This document shows, in pieces, positions 11,894-25,465 of a stretch of 29,773 nt of DNA. Below the pieces are notes generated by a model. It was given only the letters and a program-made list of their open reading frames with translations, did not search any database and was not told the origin of the DNA. How positions within the stretch are numbered: the first letter of the stretch is position 1; every line of letters starts with the position of its first letter. Position numbers and translations under genes: made by a program. Source of the stretch: an uncultured Acidaminococcus sp. (GTDB lineage: Bacteria; Bacillota_C; Negativicutes; Acidaminococcales; Acidaminococcaceae); contig OMUE01000026.1 in the NCBI GenBank assembly GCA_900314165.1, positions 1 to 29,773 of the forward strand, given 5' to 3'.

Positions 11894-13213
11894 TCACAGC
11901 TCTTTTAGCATTTTGTCCAGTATTTTCCTGCCCTCGACCGGGCCTTTTTCCTTGATGACCTTGCTGACCACGTCGTAGCCCAGCTTTGGCGTGTAAGCCG
12001 TGGCAAAGGCAGCGGACTGCTCCAGATGCTTTTGGCACTGTTCCACGTCTACTTTCAGGATCTCCACACATTTCGTCCGGAAGATGTCCACAGTCTTAGA
12101 CAGCAGCTGGAGGCTTTCCAGCAGGCAGTCTGCGATGAGGGGGAAGAATGCGTTCAGCTCGAATTCCCCATGGGCTGCTGCCATACAGATAGCATGGTCA
12201 TTGGCCATGACCTTCATGGCGCACTGCATGGTCATTTCCGGAATGACAGGATTCACTTTTCCGGGCATGATGCTGCTGCCCTGCTGCAGCTCCGCCAGAC
12301 GGATTTCTCCAAGGCCCCCATAAGGCCCGGAATTCATGAGCCGCAGGTCGTTGGCAATCTTAAACAGGTTCGTAGCCAGAGCCTTCAACAGCCCAGACAC
12401 TTCCACGAACACGTCGTTATTCTGGGTCACGTCCATGGGATATTCCGCCGTTGCCAGGCCCATGTCCGTCAGCCGGCGCAGGATCTCGATGACCCGGAAG
12501 CGGTACTTGCGGGCAGCGTTTTCCCCGGTACCCACAGCCGTGCCTCCTAAGCCTACCTGCCGCAGCCGTTCTTCCACCTTGTACAGCCGCCAGCGGTCCC
12601 GGGCAATGGCCTGGGCCCAGGCTCCGAATTCCTCCCCGGCCCGAATGGGCACGGCATCCATGAGCTCCGTCCGGCCCAGCTTCTTCACGCCGTCGTACTC
12701 GTTTTCCCGTTCCTGCAGGGCCGTCTGCAGCTTGGCACAGCCGTCGCTGAGGATCCGCAGCTGTCCGATAGCCGCAATGCGCAGGGCCGTCGGGCACACG
12801 TCGTTCGTGGATTGGCCCCGGTTCACGTCGTCCAAAGGATGGATGACGTCGTAACGGCCCCGGGCGTAGCCCAGTTTTTCCAGGGCCATATTGGCCAGGA
12901 CCTCGTTGACGTTCATATTCAGGGACGTGCCCGCACCTCCTTGGAGAGCCTCCAGAGGAAAAGCTTCCCTGCCGTAGCCGGCCAGCACGTCGTCACAGGC
13001 CTCTGCAATGGCTTCATAGATGCCCTTTTCCCGAACTCCCAGGCCCGCATAGGTCAGGGCCGCCGCTTTTTTCACCAGGATCATGGCCCGAACCAGCTCC
13101 CAGCGCACAGGATGGTCCTCCAGAGCGAAATTCTCCTTGGCCCGCTGGGTATTGATGCCGTACAGCACGTCCCCCAGCTGTTTTTCTCCTAACGCATCTC
13201 GTTCCTTCCGCAT
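11894..13213 (-). CDS. aspA: Aspartate ammonia-lyase-like protein, hydF-linked
   Basis: Member of the fumarase/aspartase superfamily; expected to interconvert aspartate with fumarate and ammonia. 439 residues from the ATG at 13213, which has AGGAGG 5 bases before it; a GTG two codons earlier overlaps the ribosome site. Conserved segments: GAGTSLNMNVNEVLAN (94-109), HPLDDVNRGQSTND (125-138), GRTELMDAVP (180-189) and the signature loop GSSIMPGKVNP (312-322), with the SS pair and lysine intact. Against ordinary aspartases the N-terminus is shorter and several near-invariant positions differ (NVNEV for NTNEV, STNDVCP for STNDAYP). It starts 9 bases after hydF. An aspartase beside hydF recurs in anaerobes, so it may feed ammonia to cofactor assembly; that role is inference. 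Confidence 0.85.
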   Translation of the reverse strand: MRKERDALGEKQLGDVLYGINTQRAKENFALEDHPVRWELVRAMILVKKAAALTYAGLGVREKGIYEAIAEACDDVLAGYGREAFPLEALQGGAGTSLNMNVNEVLANMALEKLGYARGRYDVIHPLDDVNRGQSTNDVCPTALRIAAIGQLRILSDGCAKLQTALQERENEYDGVKKLGRTELMDAVPIRAGEEFGAWAQAIARDRWRLYKVEERLRQVGLGGTAVGTGENAARKYRFRVIEILRRLTDMGLATAEYPMDVTQNNDVFVEVSGLLKALATNLFKIANDLRLMNSGPYGGLGEIRLAELQQGSSIMPGKVNPVIPEMTMQCAMKVMANDHAICMAAAHGEFELNAFFPLIADCLLESLQLLSKTVDIFRTKCVEILKVDVEQCQKHLEQSAAFATAYTPKLGYDVVSKVIKEKGPVEGRKILDKMLKEL

Positions 13214-13222
13214 AGGCACCTC

Positions 13223-23410: not shown

Positions 23411-24708
23411 GGCCGGGACCTCCTTTCCAAAGCGTCTGCGAGAGCCTGCAAGAGGGTCATGACCCCATCATAGCCAAAAGGCTGCAGGTCCTCATTCCAA
23501 TGGACGTGGGCACTGTCCGGATAATAATAAGCCGCATCCCGCCCCAGGGTTACGTCCACGGCTTGGTCCTCGTTCCGATAGTACAGCATGGTAGGCGACA
23601 GATTGGAATACACCCGGGTGTCCGGACTCAGAGCCGCCAGGCCGTCCAGCCAGGCGTACTGGTCCGCCGTAGGTGTGGCAAACAGGCTGACGACCCGGAA
23701 CCCAAACCGGGTCAGGGCCAGGGCCAGCTCGAAGGGACTGCCATTCACCGTTTCCCCGATGGCTATCCTTGTGCCGGCATAGCGCTCCCGGGTCCGCCGC
23801 ACCAGGCTGCGGGTTTCTGCCAGCCACTTGCCGTCGTCGATGGTGCCTCCCAAAACCTGAGCCAAAGCCAGATATTGGTTGTGAATCTTGTCCACCTGGT
23901 ACAGCCGGGTCAGCTCTATGCTGGGAATCCCCAGTTTCTCCTCCATGGCCTGAGCCGCCAGACGCACATCAGGGTACAACAATAGGTTGAAATTAGCCCG
24001 GCTCATAGCCTTGTATTCTGCAAAACTCTGACAGCGGGACACCTCGTTGATGTGCCGCAGGCCCAGCTGACGCAGGATATCGTACAGTTCGCTGGTAGGG
24101 CGCAGGGGTGCAAAGTATCCCAGGATATTCACGGTCCGGCTGTCCCGTTCCTGCTTTTCCAACAGGGAATAGATAGTACAGCGCACGTCCACCATGGGAG
24201 GCTTCCGCCCTTCCCGAGTCAGAGCGTACATGTAGCAGGGCACCACGGGGATGTGGCAGGCTTCCGCCGCCTTCCGGCACACCCGGTCCATATCCGTGCC
24301 CAGCAACGCGTCCACACAGGTGACGCACAGGATGACCACGCTGGGCCTCTCCGGCAGGCACGCCAGAATCTCCGATACTGCCTGGGGAATCAGGGTCAGG
24401 TGACGTCCCGTCACAATGTCCGTTTCGTCCATACTGTAATAGAAGAACCGGTTTCCGTAGCCCTCAGGGGCGTTCAAAAACGACGTATTGCGGCCGCAAC
24501 AGTCCGGTCCGATGAGCAGCATGACGGAGCCGGGAATGCACAACGCCGCCCGCTTTACCCCGAAGCCCTCAGCCCCGGGAGAATTGAAAGCCAGAGCCGC
24601 CGGAGAATTGTAGATGAGATGTTTGGCAGAAACCAGTTCGTTCGGCACCTTGTCCGGTCCCAGCTCTGCCAGTTCCTTCACAGATATACTGTAGGCTTCA
24701 CGTTTCAT
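23407..24708 (-). CDS. Nitrogenase component-1-like subunit (NifD-like), module 2
   Basis: 433 residues. The N-terminal domain has LCIPGSVMLLIGPDCCGR (Cys57, 70, 71), SMDETDIVTG where a second cysteine would be (Ser instead), and ILCVTCVDALLGTDMD (Cys128, Cys131), which matches the third P-cluster cysteine and the family's GTD/GDD turn. Later parts (NILGYFAPLRPTSELYDILR; IAIGETVNGSPFELALALTR) are the domain 2-3 alpha/beta units seen in NifE/NifN-like proteins. It overlaps the NifH-like gene by 11 bases and the next subunit by 4, so the three should be made in fixed ratio. It probably holds a simple Fe-S cluster with the 340-residue partner; substrate or cofactor unknown. Confidence 0.84.
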   Translation of the reverse strand: MKREAYSISVKELAELGPDKVPNELVSAKHLIYNSPAALAFNSPGAEGFGVKRAALCIPGSVMLLIGPDCCGRNTSFLNAPEGYGNRFFYYSMDETDIVTGRHLTLIPQAVSEILACLPERPSVVILCVTCVDALLGTDMDRVCRKAAEACHIPVVPCYMYALTREGRKPPMVDVRCTIYSLLEKQERDSRTVNILGYFAPLRPTSELYDILRQLGLRHINEVSRCQSFAEYKAMSRANFNLLLYPDVRLAAQAMEEKLGIPSIELTRLYQVDKIHNQYLALAQVLGGTIDDGKWLAETRSLVRRTRERYAGTRIAIGETVNGSPFELALALTRFGFRVVSLFATPTADQYAWLDGLAALSPDTRVYSNLSPTMLYYRNEDQAVDVTLGRDAAYYYPDSAHVHWNEDLQPFGYDGVMTLLQALADALERRSRP

Positions 24709-25465
24709 GGCTGCCCTCCTCTACTGCCAGCTTCCGGGCCAGGGCCAGGAACAGCCGGCTGATGGGCAGATTTGGGTCCACCTCGATCACCGTCTTTCCC
24801 TGCTCTTCACTGCGGTTAATGTCATCGCTGCGGGGAAAATCCCCTACGATTTCCAGTCCCCGTTGATCTGCGAAGGTCCGGACCTTCTCCTCTTCCCCAG
24901 GGACGTTCCGCCGGTTCAGCAAAATGCCCCGCACAGTGGCATAGCTGCGATCCGCGAAATTCTGGACGGCCGTGTAGATGTTGTTGGCCGCATACAGGGC
25001 CATCTTCTCCCCAGAGGTAACGATAAGGACCTGATCCGCATAGCCCTCCCGGATAGGCGCCGCAAAGCCGCCGCACACCACGTCCCCCAGCACGTCGTAT
25101 AGCACCACATCGGGCTGATAGTGATCAAAGAGGCCCAAGTCCTCCAGCAGGGCAAACGTAGCAATAATGCCCCGGCCAGCACAGCCCAGTCCGGGTGTAG
25201 GGCCTCCGGTTTCCAGGCAGAGGACGCCGCCGTAGCCCACCCGGGAAATGGCTTCAATGGATTCCGGTTCTTCATCGTGCTCCCGCAGGTAGTTCATAAC
25301 CGGTGCCAGGGGCTTGCCCCCCAGCAAGTTGAACGTGGAATCCGCCTTGGGATCGCAGCCGATCTGGATGACCCGCTTTCCCAGATAGGCAAATGCCGCA
25401 GCCAGATTGCTGGTCATGGTGGATTTGCCGATACCACCCTTTCCGTATATTGCAAGTTTCAGCAT
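24698..25465 (-). CDS. NifH-like ATP-dependent reductase (Fe protein), module 2; first gene of the operon
   Basis: 255 residues with the same core as module 1: P-loop GKGGIGKST (8-16), CDPKADST, Cys95 (GLGCAGRGII) and Cys131 (DVLGDVVCGGF). The two Fe proteins are obvious paralogues (for example TSGEKMALYAA in both) but differ in the 55-80 region and at the C-terminus, which in nitrogenase contact component 1; each may therefore serve its own partner. The start ATG 25465 has GGGAGG 4-5 bases upstream. An intrinsic terminator ends 14 bases before this ATG. Confidence 0.93.
   Translation of the reverse strand: MLKLAIYGKGGIGKSTMTSNLAAAFAYLGKRVIQIGCDPKADSTFNLLGGKPLAPVMNYLREHDEEPESIEAISRVGYGGVLCLETGGPTPGLGCAGRGIIATFALLEDLGLFDHYQPDVVLYDVLGDVVCGGFAAPIREGYADQVLIVTSGEKMALYAANNIYTAVQNFADRSYATVRGILLNRRNVPGEEEKVRTFADQRGLEIVGDFPRSDDINRSEEQGKTVIEVDPNLPISRLFLALARKLAVEEGSHET

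Follow-up and report, generated by a model that had tools for sequence, protein, structure and literature searches.

A twelve-gene operon with two nitrogenase-like modules, hypFCDE and hydF is predicted to encode most of a pathway that builds the [FeFe]-hydrogenase H-cluster without HydG

We analysed a 29,773-nucleotide stretch of DNA from an uncultured Acidaminococcus sp. (contig OMUE01000026.1; hereafter the window) and propose that an operon within it encodes most of a route to the H-cluster of [FeFe]-hydrogenases in which HydG is replaced. From gene content and its distribution among genomes, we put the probability of this reading at about 0.8. Normally HydG provides the H-cluster with its CO and CN ligands, HydE receives the HydG product, and HydF matures [FeFe]-hydrogenases. 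The linkage of the genes points to the H-cluster because one of the nitrogenase-like modules of the operon, module b, is found with HydF and HydE and almost never with HydG.

The operon and its nitrogenase-like modules

Twelve adjacent open reading frames on the minus strand run from position 25465 down to 11894 (13.6 kb). The single-strand run, its gene order, its widest gap of 76 bases and its ATGA-type overlaps, all read from the letters in a preliminary description, were confirmed by the reading frames and by family matches. From NifH_a to the aspartase gene, the inter-gene distances are -11, -4, 1, 76, -4, -4, 14, -4, 14, 12 and 3 bases, with 4-base overlaps at NifD_a/NifK_a, HypC/HypD, HypD/HypE and NifD_b/NifK_b. 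Two NifHDK-like sets, module a (25465-22388) and module b (17777-14447), are present. In order of transcription, the features are:

25487..25510, minus strand: hairpin resembling a terminator within the 5' leader; the T-run stops about 14 bases ahead of the NifH_a start codon; possibly an attenuator, judged from sequence
24698..25465, minus strand: NifH_a, NifH-like Fe protein, 255 aa; P-loop GKGGIGKS, Cys95, Cys131
23407..24708, minus strand: NifD_a, NifD/NifE-like subunit, 433 aa; conserved Cys70/71 and Cys128/131 (alignment A2)
22388..23410, minus strand: NifK_a, NifK/NifN-like subunit, 340 aa; PF00148, E 2.2e-21 (alignment A3)
20125..22386, minus strand: HypF, carbamoyltransferase; TIGR00143, 770 bits; domains and zinc fingers complete
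19842..20048, minus strand: HypC, chaperone with N-terminal Met-Cys; PF01455/TIGR00074
18793..19845, minus strand: HypD; TIGR00075, 371 bits; CGTHT and GPGCPVC motifs
17792..18796, minus strand: HypE; TIGR02124, 414 bits; C-terminal PRIC
16422..17777, minus strand: NifD_b, divergent NifD/NifE-like subunit, 451 aa
15205..16425, minus strand: NifK_b, NifK/NifN-like subunit, 406 aa from ATG; PF00148, E 2.4e-34 (alignment A4)
14447..15190, minus strand: NifH_b, second NifH-like Fe protein, 247 aa; PF00142, E 2.9e-86
13223..14434, minus strand: HydF, H-cluster scaffold GTPase; TIGR03918, 575 bits (cut-off 325.55); CTH...HCGGC cluster motif
11894..13219, minus strand: AspA, aspartate ammonia-lyase; PRK12273, 550 bits (cut-off 510)
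about 11775..11818, minus strand: terminator hairpin 3' of the last gene, read from sequence

Relatives of NifH, NifD and NifK carry out difficult ATP-driven reductions. By sequence profiles, the window modules consist of NifH and DK subunits of the NifEN/DPOR fold (NifH_a, PF00142 E 4.8e-85; NifD_a, PF00148 E 2.1e-37). NifD_b itself has no Pfam or NCBIfam match; a relative at 89% carries PF00148, and the NifD_b family profile matches NifE/VnfD chains in the PDB at E about 1e-8. Cys71, Cys132 and Cys449 of NifD_b are invariant in a 26-row alignment (A1). None of the curated cut-offs for NifH/D/E, BchL/B or CfbC is reached by the window modules: NifH models gave 300 (TIGR01287, NifH_a) and 310 bits against a cut-off of 394, and the NifE model 64 bits against 505. 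The cofactor-ligand cysteine of the nitrogenase alpha subunit, at what we take to be the FeMo-cofactor ligand position, is found in none of the NifD_a, NifD_b, NifK_a and NifK_b profiles in HMMER alignments. In contrast to NifEN, DPOR (BchL/NB), CfbCD and methylthio-alkane reductase, the modules have hyp and hyd genes as neighbours.

Natural fusions of NifD_a and NifK_a occur in five relatives. In an AF2 model of the fused NifDK_a from locus L038 (pLDDT 80.5, pTM 0.66), the single halves match the NifEN fold; the whole-chain NifEN match has an rmsd of 26, so that the relative placing of the two halves is without support. Selenocysteine in NifD_a was considered, as several matches were flagged with one in-frame TGA, and was ruled out: the one stop seen, in locus L111, falls where the protein naturally ends, and no stop interrupts the match in the rest of the loci fetched.

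Exchange of two front ends beside module b

Relatives of the twelve genes are found across gut and rumen bacteria, and two interchangeable front ends appear beside module b. LONG loci add module a and hypFCDE, whereas SHORT loci add an ABC importer of the BtuCD/siderophore type. NifK_a adjoins HypF in all 36 loci that show both, an adjacency far beyond chance, and NifK_a-HypF-HypC-HypD are contiguous in 35 of them; in the exception (L111, genome G346) another reading frame follows HypF, and hypC-D-E precede module b on another contig. Of 93 module b loci, 77 show at least one of HydE, HydF and the hydrogenase-system protein TM1266 (TIGR03959). The near-mirror arrangement of the modules around the Hyp set, to which the preliminary description had appealed, does not hold across loci: elsewhere module b comes first, the two modules are divergent, or both DK pairs share one NifH, and NifH_b is missing in several related operons, where a single NifH serves. 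The claim drawn from it, of a single pathway for all parts in which an Fe-CO/CN cofactor is made or modified, is nevertheless supported, in that the linkage of modules, hyp and hyd genes holds across genomes.

Among 95 loci counted, LONG parts occur in 39, importer parts in 44 and both in none, the importer counts being tblastn matches to the permease and binding protein of locus L021, which dissimilar importers would escape. The three components of a BtuCDF/FecBCD-type importer are encoded at L021, each scoring below its equivalog cut-off: the permease (BtuC, 207 bits), the ATPase (heme/corrinoid ATPases) and an IsdE-like binding protein. Among the 44 loci that have an importer-type ATPase match, 27 carry a TM1266-like stretch in one open frame with the ATPase. 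On a NifD_b tree, LONG and SHORT changed into one another at least three times, with L016 and L058, where only the ATPase is in view, labelled SHORT on the tree and counted as neither among the 95 loci. Because the front ends exchange, both probably deliver one and the same iron-CN/CO unit, module a with the Hyp proteins by synthesis and the importer by uptake. Independent occurrence without linkage, the outcome named beforehand as contrary to a common pathway, is not what the genomes show: linkage was found. Some genomes do have module b, HydE and HydF but not module a and hyp, and these then have the importer. Since the importer stands where module a and hyp are missing, the dependence of the parts is structured, not absent.

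In [NiFe]-hydrogenase maturation by HypABCDEF, cyanide is formed from carbamoyl phosphate by HypF, which takes the first step, and its cyanide-forming partner HypE; HypCD hold Fe(CN)2CO, with HypD as the scaffold of the unit. The window HypF, HypC, HypD and HypE resemble that system, all scoring above the cut-offs of TIGR00143, TIGR00074, TIGR00075 and TIGR02124 with catalytic motifs intact; neither HypA nor HypB was named among the window reading frames scanned. They differ in that HypF adjoins NifHDK_a and in that their client appears to be the H-cluster route. Service to a [NiFe]-hydrogenase was rejected for most carriers, which lack the [NiFe] large subunit: it was over cut-off in none of 15 carriers in an even draw of genomes, and in 5 of 36 carriers in a second set (both described below), four of these being 70-residue matches and one full length. 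A second HypD lies next to [NiFe]-type sequence in G007, G008 and G020, in the last beside the gene of a real [NiFe] large subunit, and the operon Hyp set therefore looks dedicated. Among the 36, one genome combines HypD with a SHORT locus (G011, locus L015), and there HypD shares its contig with a [NiFe]-type fragment.

Near-exclusion between module b and HydG

In an even draw of 391 genomes from the class of one carrier, NifD_b (profile A1 at 461 bits or more, a cut-off chosen after the gap between 461 and 359 bits was visible) was found in 15. HydF and HydE are present in all 15 and HydG, over its cut-off, in none, where scored absences can be gaps because many of the genomes are metagenome assemblies. 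Of the other HydF genomes, 234 of 247 have HydG (Fisher p 4e-17, in a test that ignores kinship), leaving 13 with neither HydG nor module b. Among the 15 even-draw carriers, the ten that have module a, and no others, have HypD; the other five have the importer. A second set comprised 36 carriers out of 80 chosen loci. HydG is over cut-off in one of them; HypD is present in 27, and HydE in 35, plus one gene split in two pieces. HydA was found in 35 of the 36 (the HydA search covered two of the 15 even-draw carriers), and of 30 HydA proteins read, 22 have all three H-cluster motifs and 8 have two, with patterns loosened once. In the family of Megasphaera massiliensis, HydG is present in 0 of 17. 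From these relatives, we infer that the source organism has HydE and HydA and lacks HydG.

Module b and HydG exchanged at least nine times on a HydF tree of 49 HydG rows, out of 234, and 31 module b rows; 21 of the latter come from genomes covered by the HydG search, the other ten being the window and L018, L032, L039, L044, L049, L052, L055, L065 and L076. The change count alone was used, the labels being complementary by construction, which makes an independent-pairs test uninformative. Module b and HydG do occur together in G034 (Synergistaceae). A related clade of NifHDK plus importer, scoring 316-359 bits with A1, is present in four of the 391 genomes, three of which have HydG; with these counted as carriers, HydG is found in 3 of 19. 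G304, a HydG-bearing genome, holds a more distant NifDK pair and a binding protein (A1 211 bits; NifD 29% identical); it was dropped as a module a-only carrier, since it belongs to another clade. Because of this clade and G304, a pairing of NifDK with an importer is not always tied to HydG loss.

A different Fe-CN/CO cofactor, made by the modules and Hyp proteins for an unknown enzyme with hydF present for another reason, would fit the lack of a HydA gene in the window and its presence in view at only 1 of 99 related loci. We give this next to no weight, as module b and HydG almost exclude one another among HydF genomes and module b is linked to HydE, HydF and TM1266, and HydA is present in nearly all second-set carriers.

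It is also conceivable that HypFCDE or an imported compound alone replaces the ligand supply of HydG, the NifHDK modules being ATP-driven reductases that mobilise iron from imported chelates and have no part in CO/CN chemistry. The BtuCD/siderophore/heme type of the importer would fit this, FeoA/FeoB-like genes lie near some loci, and a coupling of metal transport to cofactor assembly is suggested in a passage of PMC3464626. However, the five SHORT even-draw genomes keep HydE and HydF without HydG and HypD, and some ligand source is therefore still needed there; no other gene family recurs widely at the loci (the most frequent unassigned one is at 7 of 99), and module a accompanies hyp and not an iron transporter. 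We consider iron mobilisation of this kind quite unlikely.

An unrecognised radical-SAM paralogue doing the job of HydG, with the operon serving something else, appears very improbable to us. Atypical radical-SAM proteins of about 450 residues are offered as possible HydGs of acetogens in the section of PMC9431212 on these genes, and matches near 200 bits occur in Megasphaera. By their length and an E. coli control we take the latter to be ThiH-like, and ThiH as a stand-in was ruled against: in 17 of the 36 carriers, Acetitomaculum ruminis included, HydE is the only match to the HydG model at E 0.001. A paralogue would also leave the exclusion between module b and HydG unexplained.

A proposed route and its bearing on acetogens

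The operon shares HydF with HydE/HydF/HydG maturation, and its carrier genomes share HydE and HydA. They differ in that nearly all the carriers tested are without HydG, the ligand step apparently falling to HypFCDE with the nitrogenase-like modules, or to the importer with module b. We propose that, as for [NiFe]-hydrogenases, HypF and HypE would make cyanide from carbamoyl phosphate and Fe(CN)2CO would be carried by HypCD. NifHDK_a would be a partner of HypCD; its most likely task is an ATP-driven reduction, either one that yields CO, with CO2 as an example of a source, or one that releases the iron unit in a reduced state. Where the genome is SHORT, an equivalent unit would arrive from outside through the importer. 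NifHDK_b, common to both, would carry out a reductive conversion of the unit, probably a ligand exchange, to a mononuclear Fe(CO)2CN-type substrate for HydE in place of that from HydG. HydE and HydF would then complete the two-iron cluster, with the bridge nitrogen given by the aspartase, and HydF would load HydA. This exact division of chemistry between modules a and b is unlikely to hold in every detail. The import of a ready Fe-CN/CO unit, suggested by its exchange with module a and hypFCDE, is possible but tentative. With similar reserve, we speculate that there is a second H-cluster route in which nitrogenase-like enzymes and the cyanide machinery of [NiFe] maturation replace HydG and the iron-cyanide-carbon monoxide intermediate is traded, made by LONG organisms with NifHDK_a and HypFCDE, imported by SHORT ones via an ABC transporter dedicated to it, and converted for HydE in both by NifHDK_b, which would be a new kind of nitrogenase-like organometallic reductase.

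The aspartase beside hydF recalls published hyd operons, where ammonia-lyases are described with a role in the section concerned (PMC11736057); by analogy, AspA is predicted to supply nitrogen for the dithiomethylamine bridge of the H-cluster. The preliminary description knew of no system uniting nitrogenase-like, Hyp and HydF proteins. In 2012, a linked pair of NifHEN-like copies was noted next to hydrogenase maturation proteins in Coprococcus catus and other Firmicutes (PMC3464626); judged by that description, these probably belong to the gene family studied here. That passage gives one sentence of association, which covers neither HydG loss, nor the pairing with hypFCDE, nor the LONG/SHORT exchange, so that the association was already on record while the exchange with HydG was not part of it. 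We found no account of nitrogenase-like genes replacing HydG in the open-licence literature.

Clostridial acetogens with HydE and HydF and without a typical HydG, and with HypCDEF without HypAB, have been described (PMC9431212), the section in question finding no straightforward explanation and suggesting that the HydGs might be atypical or that free CO/CN might be taken up. They share the genome pattern of our carriers, and nitrogenase-like genes are not mentioned in that section. Clostridium ljungdahlii is reported there as lacking a recognisable HydG; its NifD_b is 83% identical to that of C. luticellarii, which has a LONG locus. A. ruminis (L064), according to an excerpt of PMC6776011 a hydrogenotrophic acetogen with [FeFe]-hydrogenases, likewise has a LONG locus and neither HydG nor [NiFe].

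A HydG-free route would explain the missing recognisable HydG in industrial acetogens such as C. ljungdahlii, and would bring the cofactor chemistries of nitrogenase-like, [NiFe] and [FeFe] enzymes together in a single pathway. It would also provide a new gene set for heterologous hydrogenase production. Should the cargo of the importer be an iron-cyanide-carbonyl compound, gut and rumen bacteria would have an organometallic cofactor precursor in common, which would bear on H2 and methane.

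Operon organization and the two front ends

A run of twelve ORFs on one strand, as put forward in the preliminary description, is borne out (- strand, 25465 to 11894, with gaps of at most 76 bases and four 4-base overlaps), and Pfam and NCBIfam support the names given there to the NifH-like and NifDK-like proteins, HypF, HypC, HypD, HypE, HydF and aspartate ammonia-lyase. The run contains two nitrogenase-like modules:

25465-22388, - strand: module a (NifH_a, NifD_a, NifK_a)
17777-14447, - strand: module b (NifD_b, NifK_b, NifH_b)

Motifs that we take to be functional sites are intact in the window, namely Met-Cys of HypC, CGTHT and GPGCPVC of HypD, PRIC of HypE, the zinc fingers of HypF, the P-loop and two cluster cysteines of NifH, and CTH...HCGGC of HydF. 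Megasphaera and its kin are the nearest relatives with a name. Outside the window, the aspartase was found only at L003 and L038 (2 of 93 related loci). Its presence agrees with hyd operons described elsewhere, where ammonia-lyases supply the bridge nitrogen (PMC11736057). The sole Rfam match of the window at gathering score is a tRNA gene at 7616-7689 (+).

Using a profile of NifD_b (A1) against genome contigs, with one genome per species, we obtained 503 relatives and kept the best 80 loci. Among these best 80 of 503 are several Bacillota groups, Treponema, Synergistes, Atopobium and Loigolactobacillus. With 19 further loci, 99 were inspected and 95 counted, omitting L122 (a duplicate of L019) and L117, L128 and L129 (other clades). 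A distant NifD_b relative (24% identity) is encoded at 91341-92462 of the 424-kb Treponema saccharophilum plasmid NZ_AP025289.1.

Two front ends were observed. Module a or hyp genes (the LONG form) are visible in 39 of the 95 loci, and a permease or binding protein like those of the importer at locus L021 (the SHORT form) in 44; parts of both are never found at one locus (0/95), and the 12 loci with neither are mostly short contigs. In LONG loci, NifK_a adjoins HypF wherever both are seen (36/36), with HypC and HypD next in all but L111 (35/36). Five loci from the even draw described below (L112, L113, L115, L116 and L118) have the window's order, but with one NifH and an inserted TM1266 gene (NifH_a-D_a-K_a-hypF-C-D-E-TM1266-NifD_b-K_b-hydF). 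The split hyp genes of genome G346 are a weak point: another large ORF follows HypF, and hypC-D-E precede TM1266 and module b on a separate contig (L111 and L121). At L009, L022, L038, L042 and L064, NifD_a and NifK_a are fused into a single protein of 806-854 residues.

The SHORT form frequently has the order TM1266-permease-ATPase-HydE-NifH-NifD_b-NifK_b-binding protein-HydF. The importer of L021 is of the BtuCD/FecCD type, with IsdE nearest to its binding protein, and TIGR03959 names TM1266 an iron-only hydrogenase system protein. In 27 of the 44 loci with an ATPase match (L021 7917-9020, L025, L027, L055 and others), the importer-type ATPase and a TM1266-like stretch share one open frame, which ties the importer to [FeFe]-hydrogenase maturation. 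Of 93 module b loci, 77 show HydE, HydF or TM1266; among those with full flanks the count is 34 of 38. FeoA/FeoB-like ferrous iron transport genes, assigned by eye, lie near the clusters of L015, L018, L019 (= L122), L039, L070 and L128.

Module b and HydG in the genomes of relatives

An even draw of 391 genomes was taken from the class of Clostridium luticellarii (locus L078, genome G031; Clostridia by inference). NifD_b scored at least 461 bits in 15 of them, HydF was found at E 1e-40 in 262 (260 over the cut-off), and HydG was over the cut-off in 240. All 15 NifD_b genomes have HydF and none has HydG, while HydG is present in 234 of the 247 remaining HydF genomes (Fisher p 4e-17, taking no account of kinship). 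With a background rate of missing HydG of 13/247, its absence from 15 of 15 is unexpected. HydE is present in all 15, and the [NiFe] large subunit was found in none of them. The distribution of HypD follows the front ends exactly: the 10 genomes with module a have it and the five with an importer lack it.

A second sample comprised the genomes of 36 of the best 80 loci, chosen as isolates and as long, varied loci. HydE was found in 35 and in two pieces in one more, and HydA in 35; the [NiFe] large-subunit model matched in five, four of these being 70-residue matches. HypD is present in 27 genomes (25 LONG, one SHORT, L015, and one with neither front end, L006), and importer parts are visible in all nine without it. 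HydG was over the cut-off in one of the 36, and in none of 17 genomes from the family of Megasphaera massiliensis (G001). The one exception, a Synergistaceae assembly (L062, G034), carries a full HydG as well as HydE and a SHORT module b; it is the sole coexistence seen, and a weak point of the reading that HydG is replaced.

The 13 HydF genomes with neither HydG nor module b (G315, G337, G398, G403 and nine others) are another weak point. HydE is likewise missing at E 1e-50 from four, and some of the 13 may be incomplete assemblies or use yet another route. So are importer-linked cousins in HydG genomes. A related NifHDK and importer cluster (A1 316-359 bits; G184, G108, G215 and G177; L128 and L129) occurs with HydG in three of four genomes, the cluster of G215 being far from hyd genes, and in the HydG-bearing genome G304 a NifDK-like pair, more distant still, occurs with a binding protein (L117; NifD 29% identical).

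An 80-row HydF tree shows at least nine changes between the module b and HydG states, with the LONG C. luticellarii placed among HydG genomes, and on the NifD_b tree LONG and SHORT switch at least three times. From these changes, the module b system and HydG seem to have been swapped repeatedly, and the two front ends likewise. The Hyp set of the operon looks separate, since G007, G008 and G020 have a second HypD beside a [NiFe]-type sequence.

Hairpins upstream of the operons

In 25 of 62 loci a hairpin resembling a terminator immediately precedes TM1266, which is often the first gene; the figure for random windows is 15 of 1860. The same test gave 1/58 for NifH_a, 1/58 for NifH_b, 0/61 for NifK_b, 0/27 for HypD, 0/27 for HydF, 0/17 for the binding protein, 0/15 for NifD_b, 2/14 for the permease and 2/4 for HydE. 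Twenty TM1266 leaders share a hairpin, CUGAC-stem-GAAA...UUGA-stem-GAAAG, with a covarying four-pair stem (95% of cells paired, 18 changed on both sides). Of 500 shuffles, none reached these values on three of five measures, and 6 and 154 did so on the remaining two. Positions include:

L025 5661-5702: covarying leader hairpin
L043 5628-5669: covarying leader hairpin
L114 15359-15320: covarying leader hairpin
L123 1066-1106: covarying leader hairpin

It is also present at L044, L055, L071 and others, in LONG and SHORT operons alike, often with a terminator next. Searched against 69 other sources, an RNA model of the hairpin matched L059 (twice), L114, L123, L067, L069 and L033 at E <1e-3; the window gave no match at E 5. 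Rfam 15 matched none of the leaders tried, and we regard the hairpin as a candidate for a new cis-regulatory RNA of H-cluster operons.

The window has a hairpin of its own:

25487-25510, - strand: terminator-like hairpin, immediately 5' of the NifH_a ribosome-binding site

It may be an attenuator, because there is no room for a promoter between it and NifH_a. At 25584 the leader has a CUGACGG-like piece similar to pieces in Megasphaera leaders; the RNA model has no match there.

Acetogens and a possible route to the H-cluster

Acetitomaculum ruminis (L064, G026), known as a hydrogenotrophic acetogen that has [FeFe]-hydrogenases (PMC6776011), has the LONG form, HydE and HydA all on one contig; in its genome the HydG model matches only HydE, and there is no [NiFe] match. 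According to PMC9431212, HydE and HydF occur with no typical HydG in C. ljungdahlii, C. carboxidivorans, C. coskatii, C. ragsdalei and strain AWRP; C. autoethanogenum, C. drakei and C. scatologenes have an assigned HydG, and five species have HypCDEF without HypAB. The hypFCDE genes of C. autoethanogenum are CLAU_RS01730-01745 (PMC9431212). Its authors state that they have no straightforward explanation, and suggest that atypical HydG-like proteins, or the uptake of free CO/CN, might account for the pattern (PMC9431212). A C. ljungdahlii protein annotated as ‘nitrogenase component 1’ is 83% identical to NifD_b of C. luticellarii over the whole query.

Module b, HydE and HydF, together with either module a and HypFCDE or the importer, occupy the place that HydE, HydF and HydG have elsewhere. 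HydE uses an Fe(CO)2CN unit that comes from HydG. In the Hyp system, cyanide comes from HypF/E and Fe(CN)2CO is held by HypCD; NifH-driven DK enzymes carry out hard reductions, including that of CO2 to CO by nitrogenases. We hypothesize that module a and the Hyp proteins would make an iron-cyanide-carbonyl, that the importer would bring in the same product, and that module b would adapt it for HydE. Assigning the making of CO to either module would be a guess.

Two linked NifHEN-like copies near hydrogenase maturation proteins, in Coprococcus catus and others, were described by Dos Santos and colleagues in 2012, who suggested that they may help to build the active-site cluster and, separately, placed other NifHEN-like copies near ABC transporters (PMC3464626). 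Added here are the exclusion of HydG, the pairing with hypFCDE, the exchange of LONG and SHORT, and the link to acetogens that lack HydG. If the reading in which the precursor is traded is true, the system would be more than a variant of H-cluster maturation.
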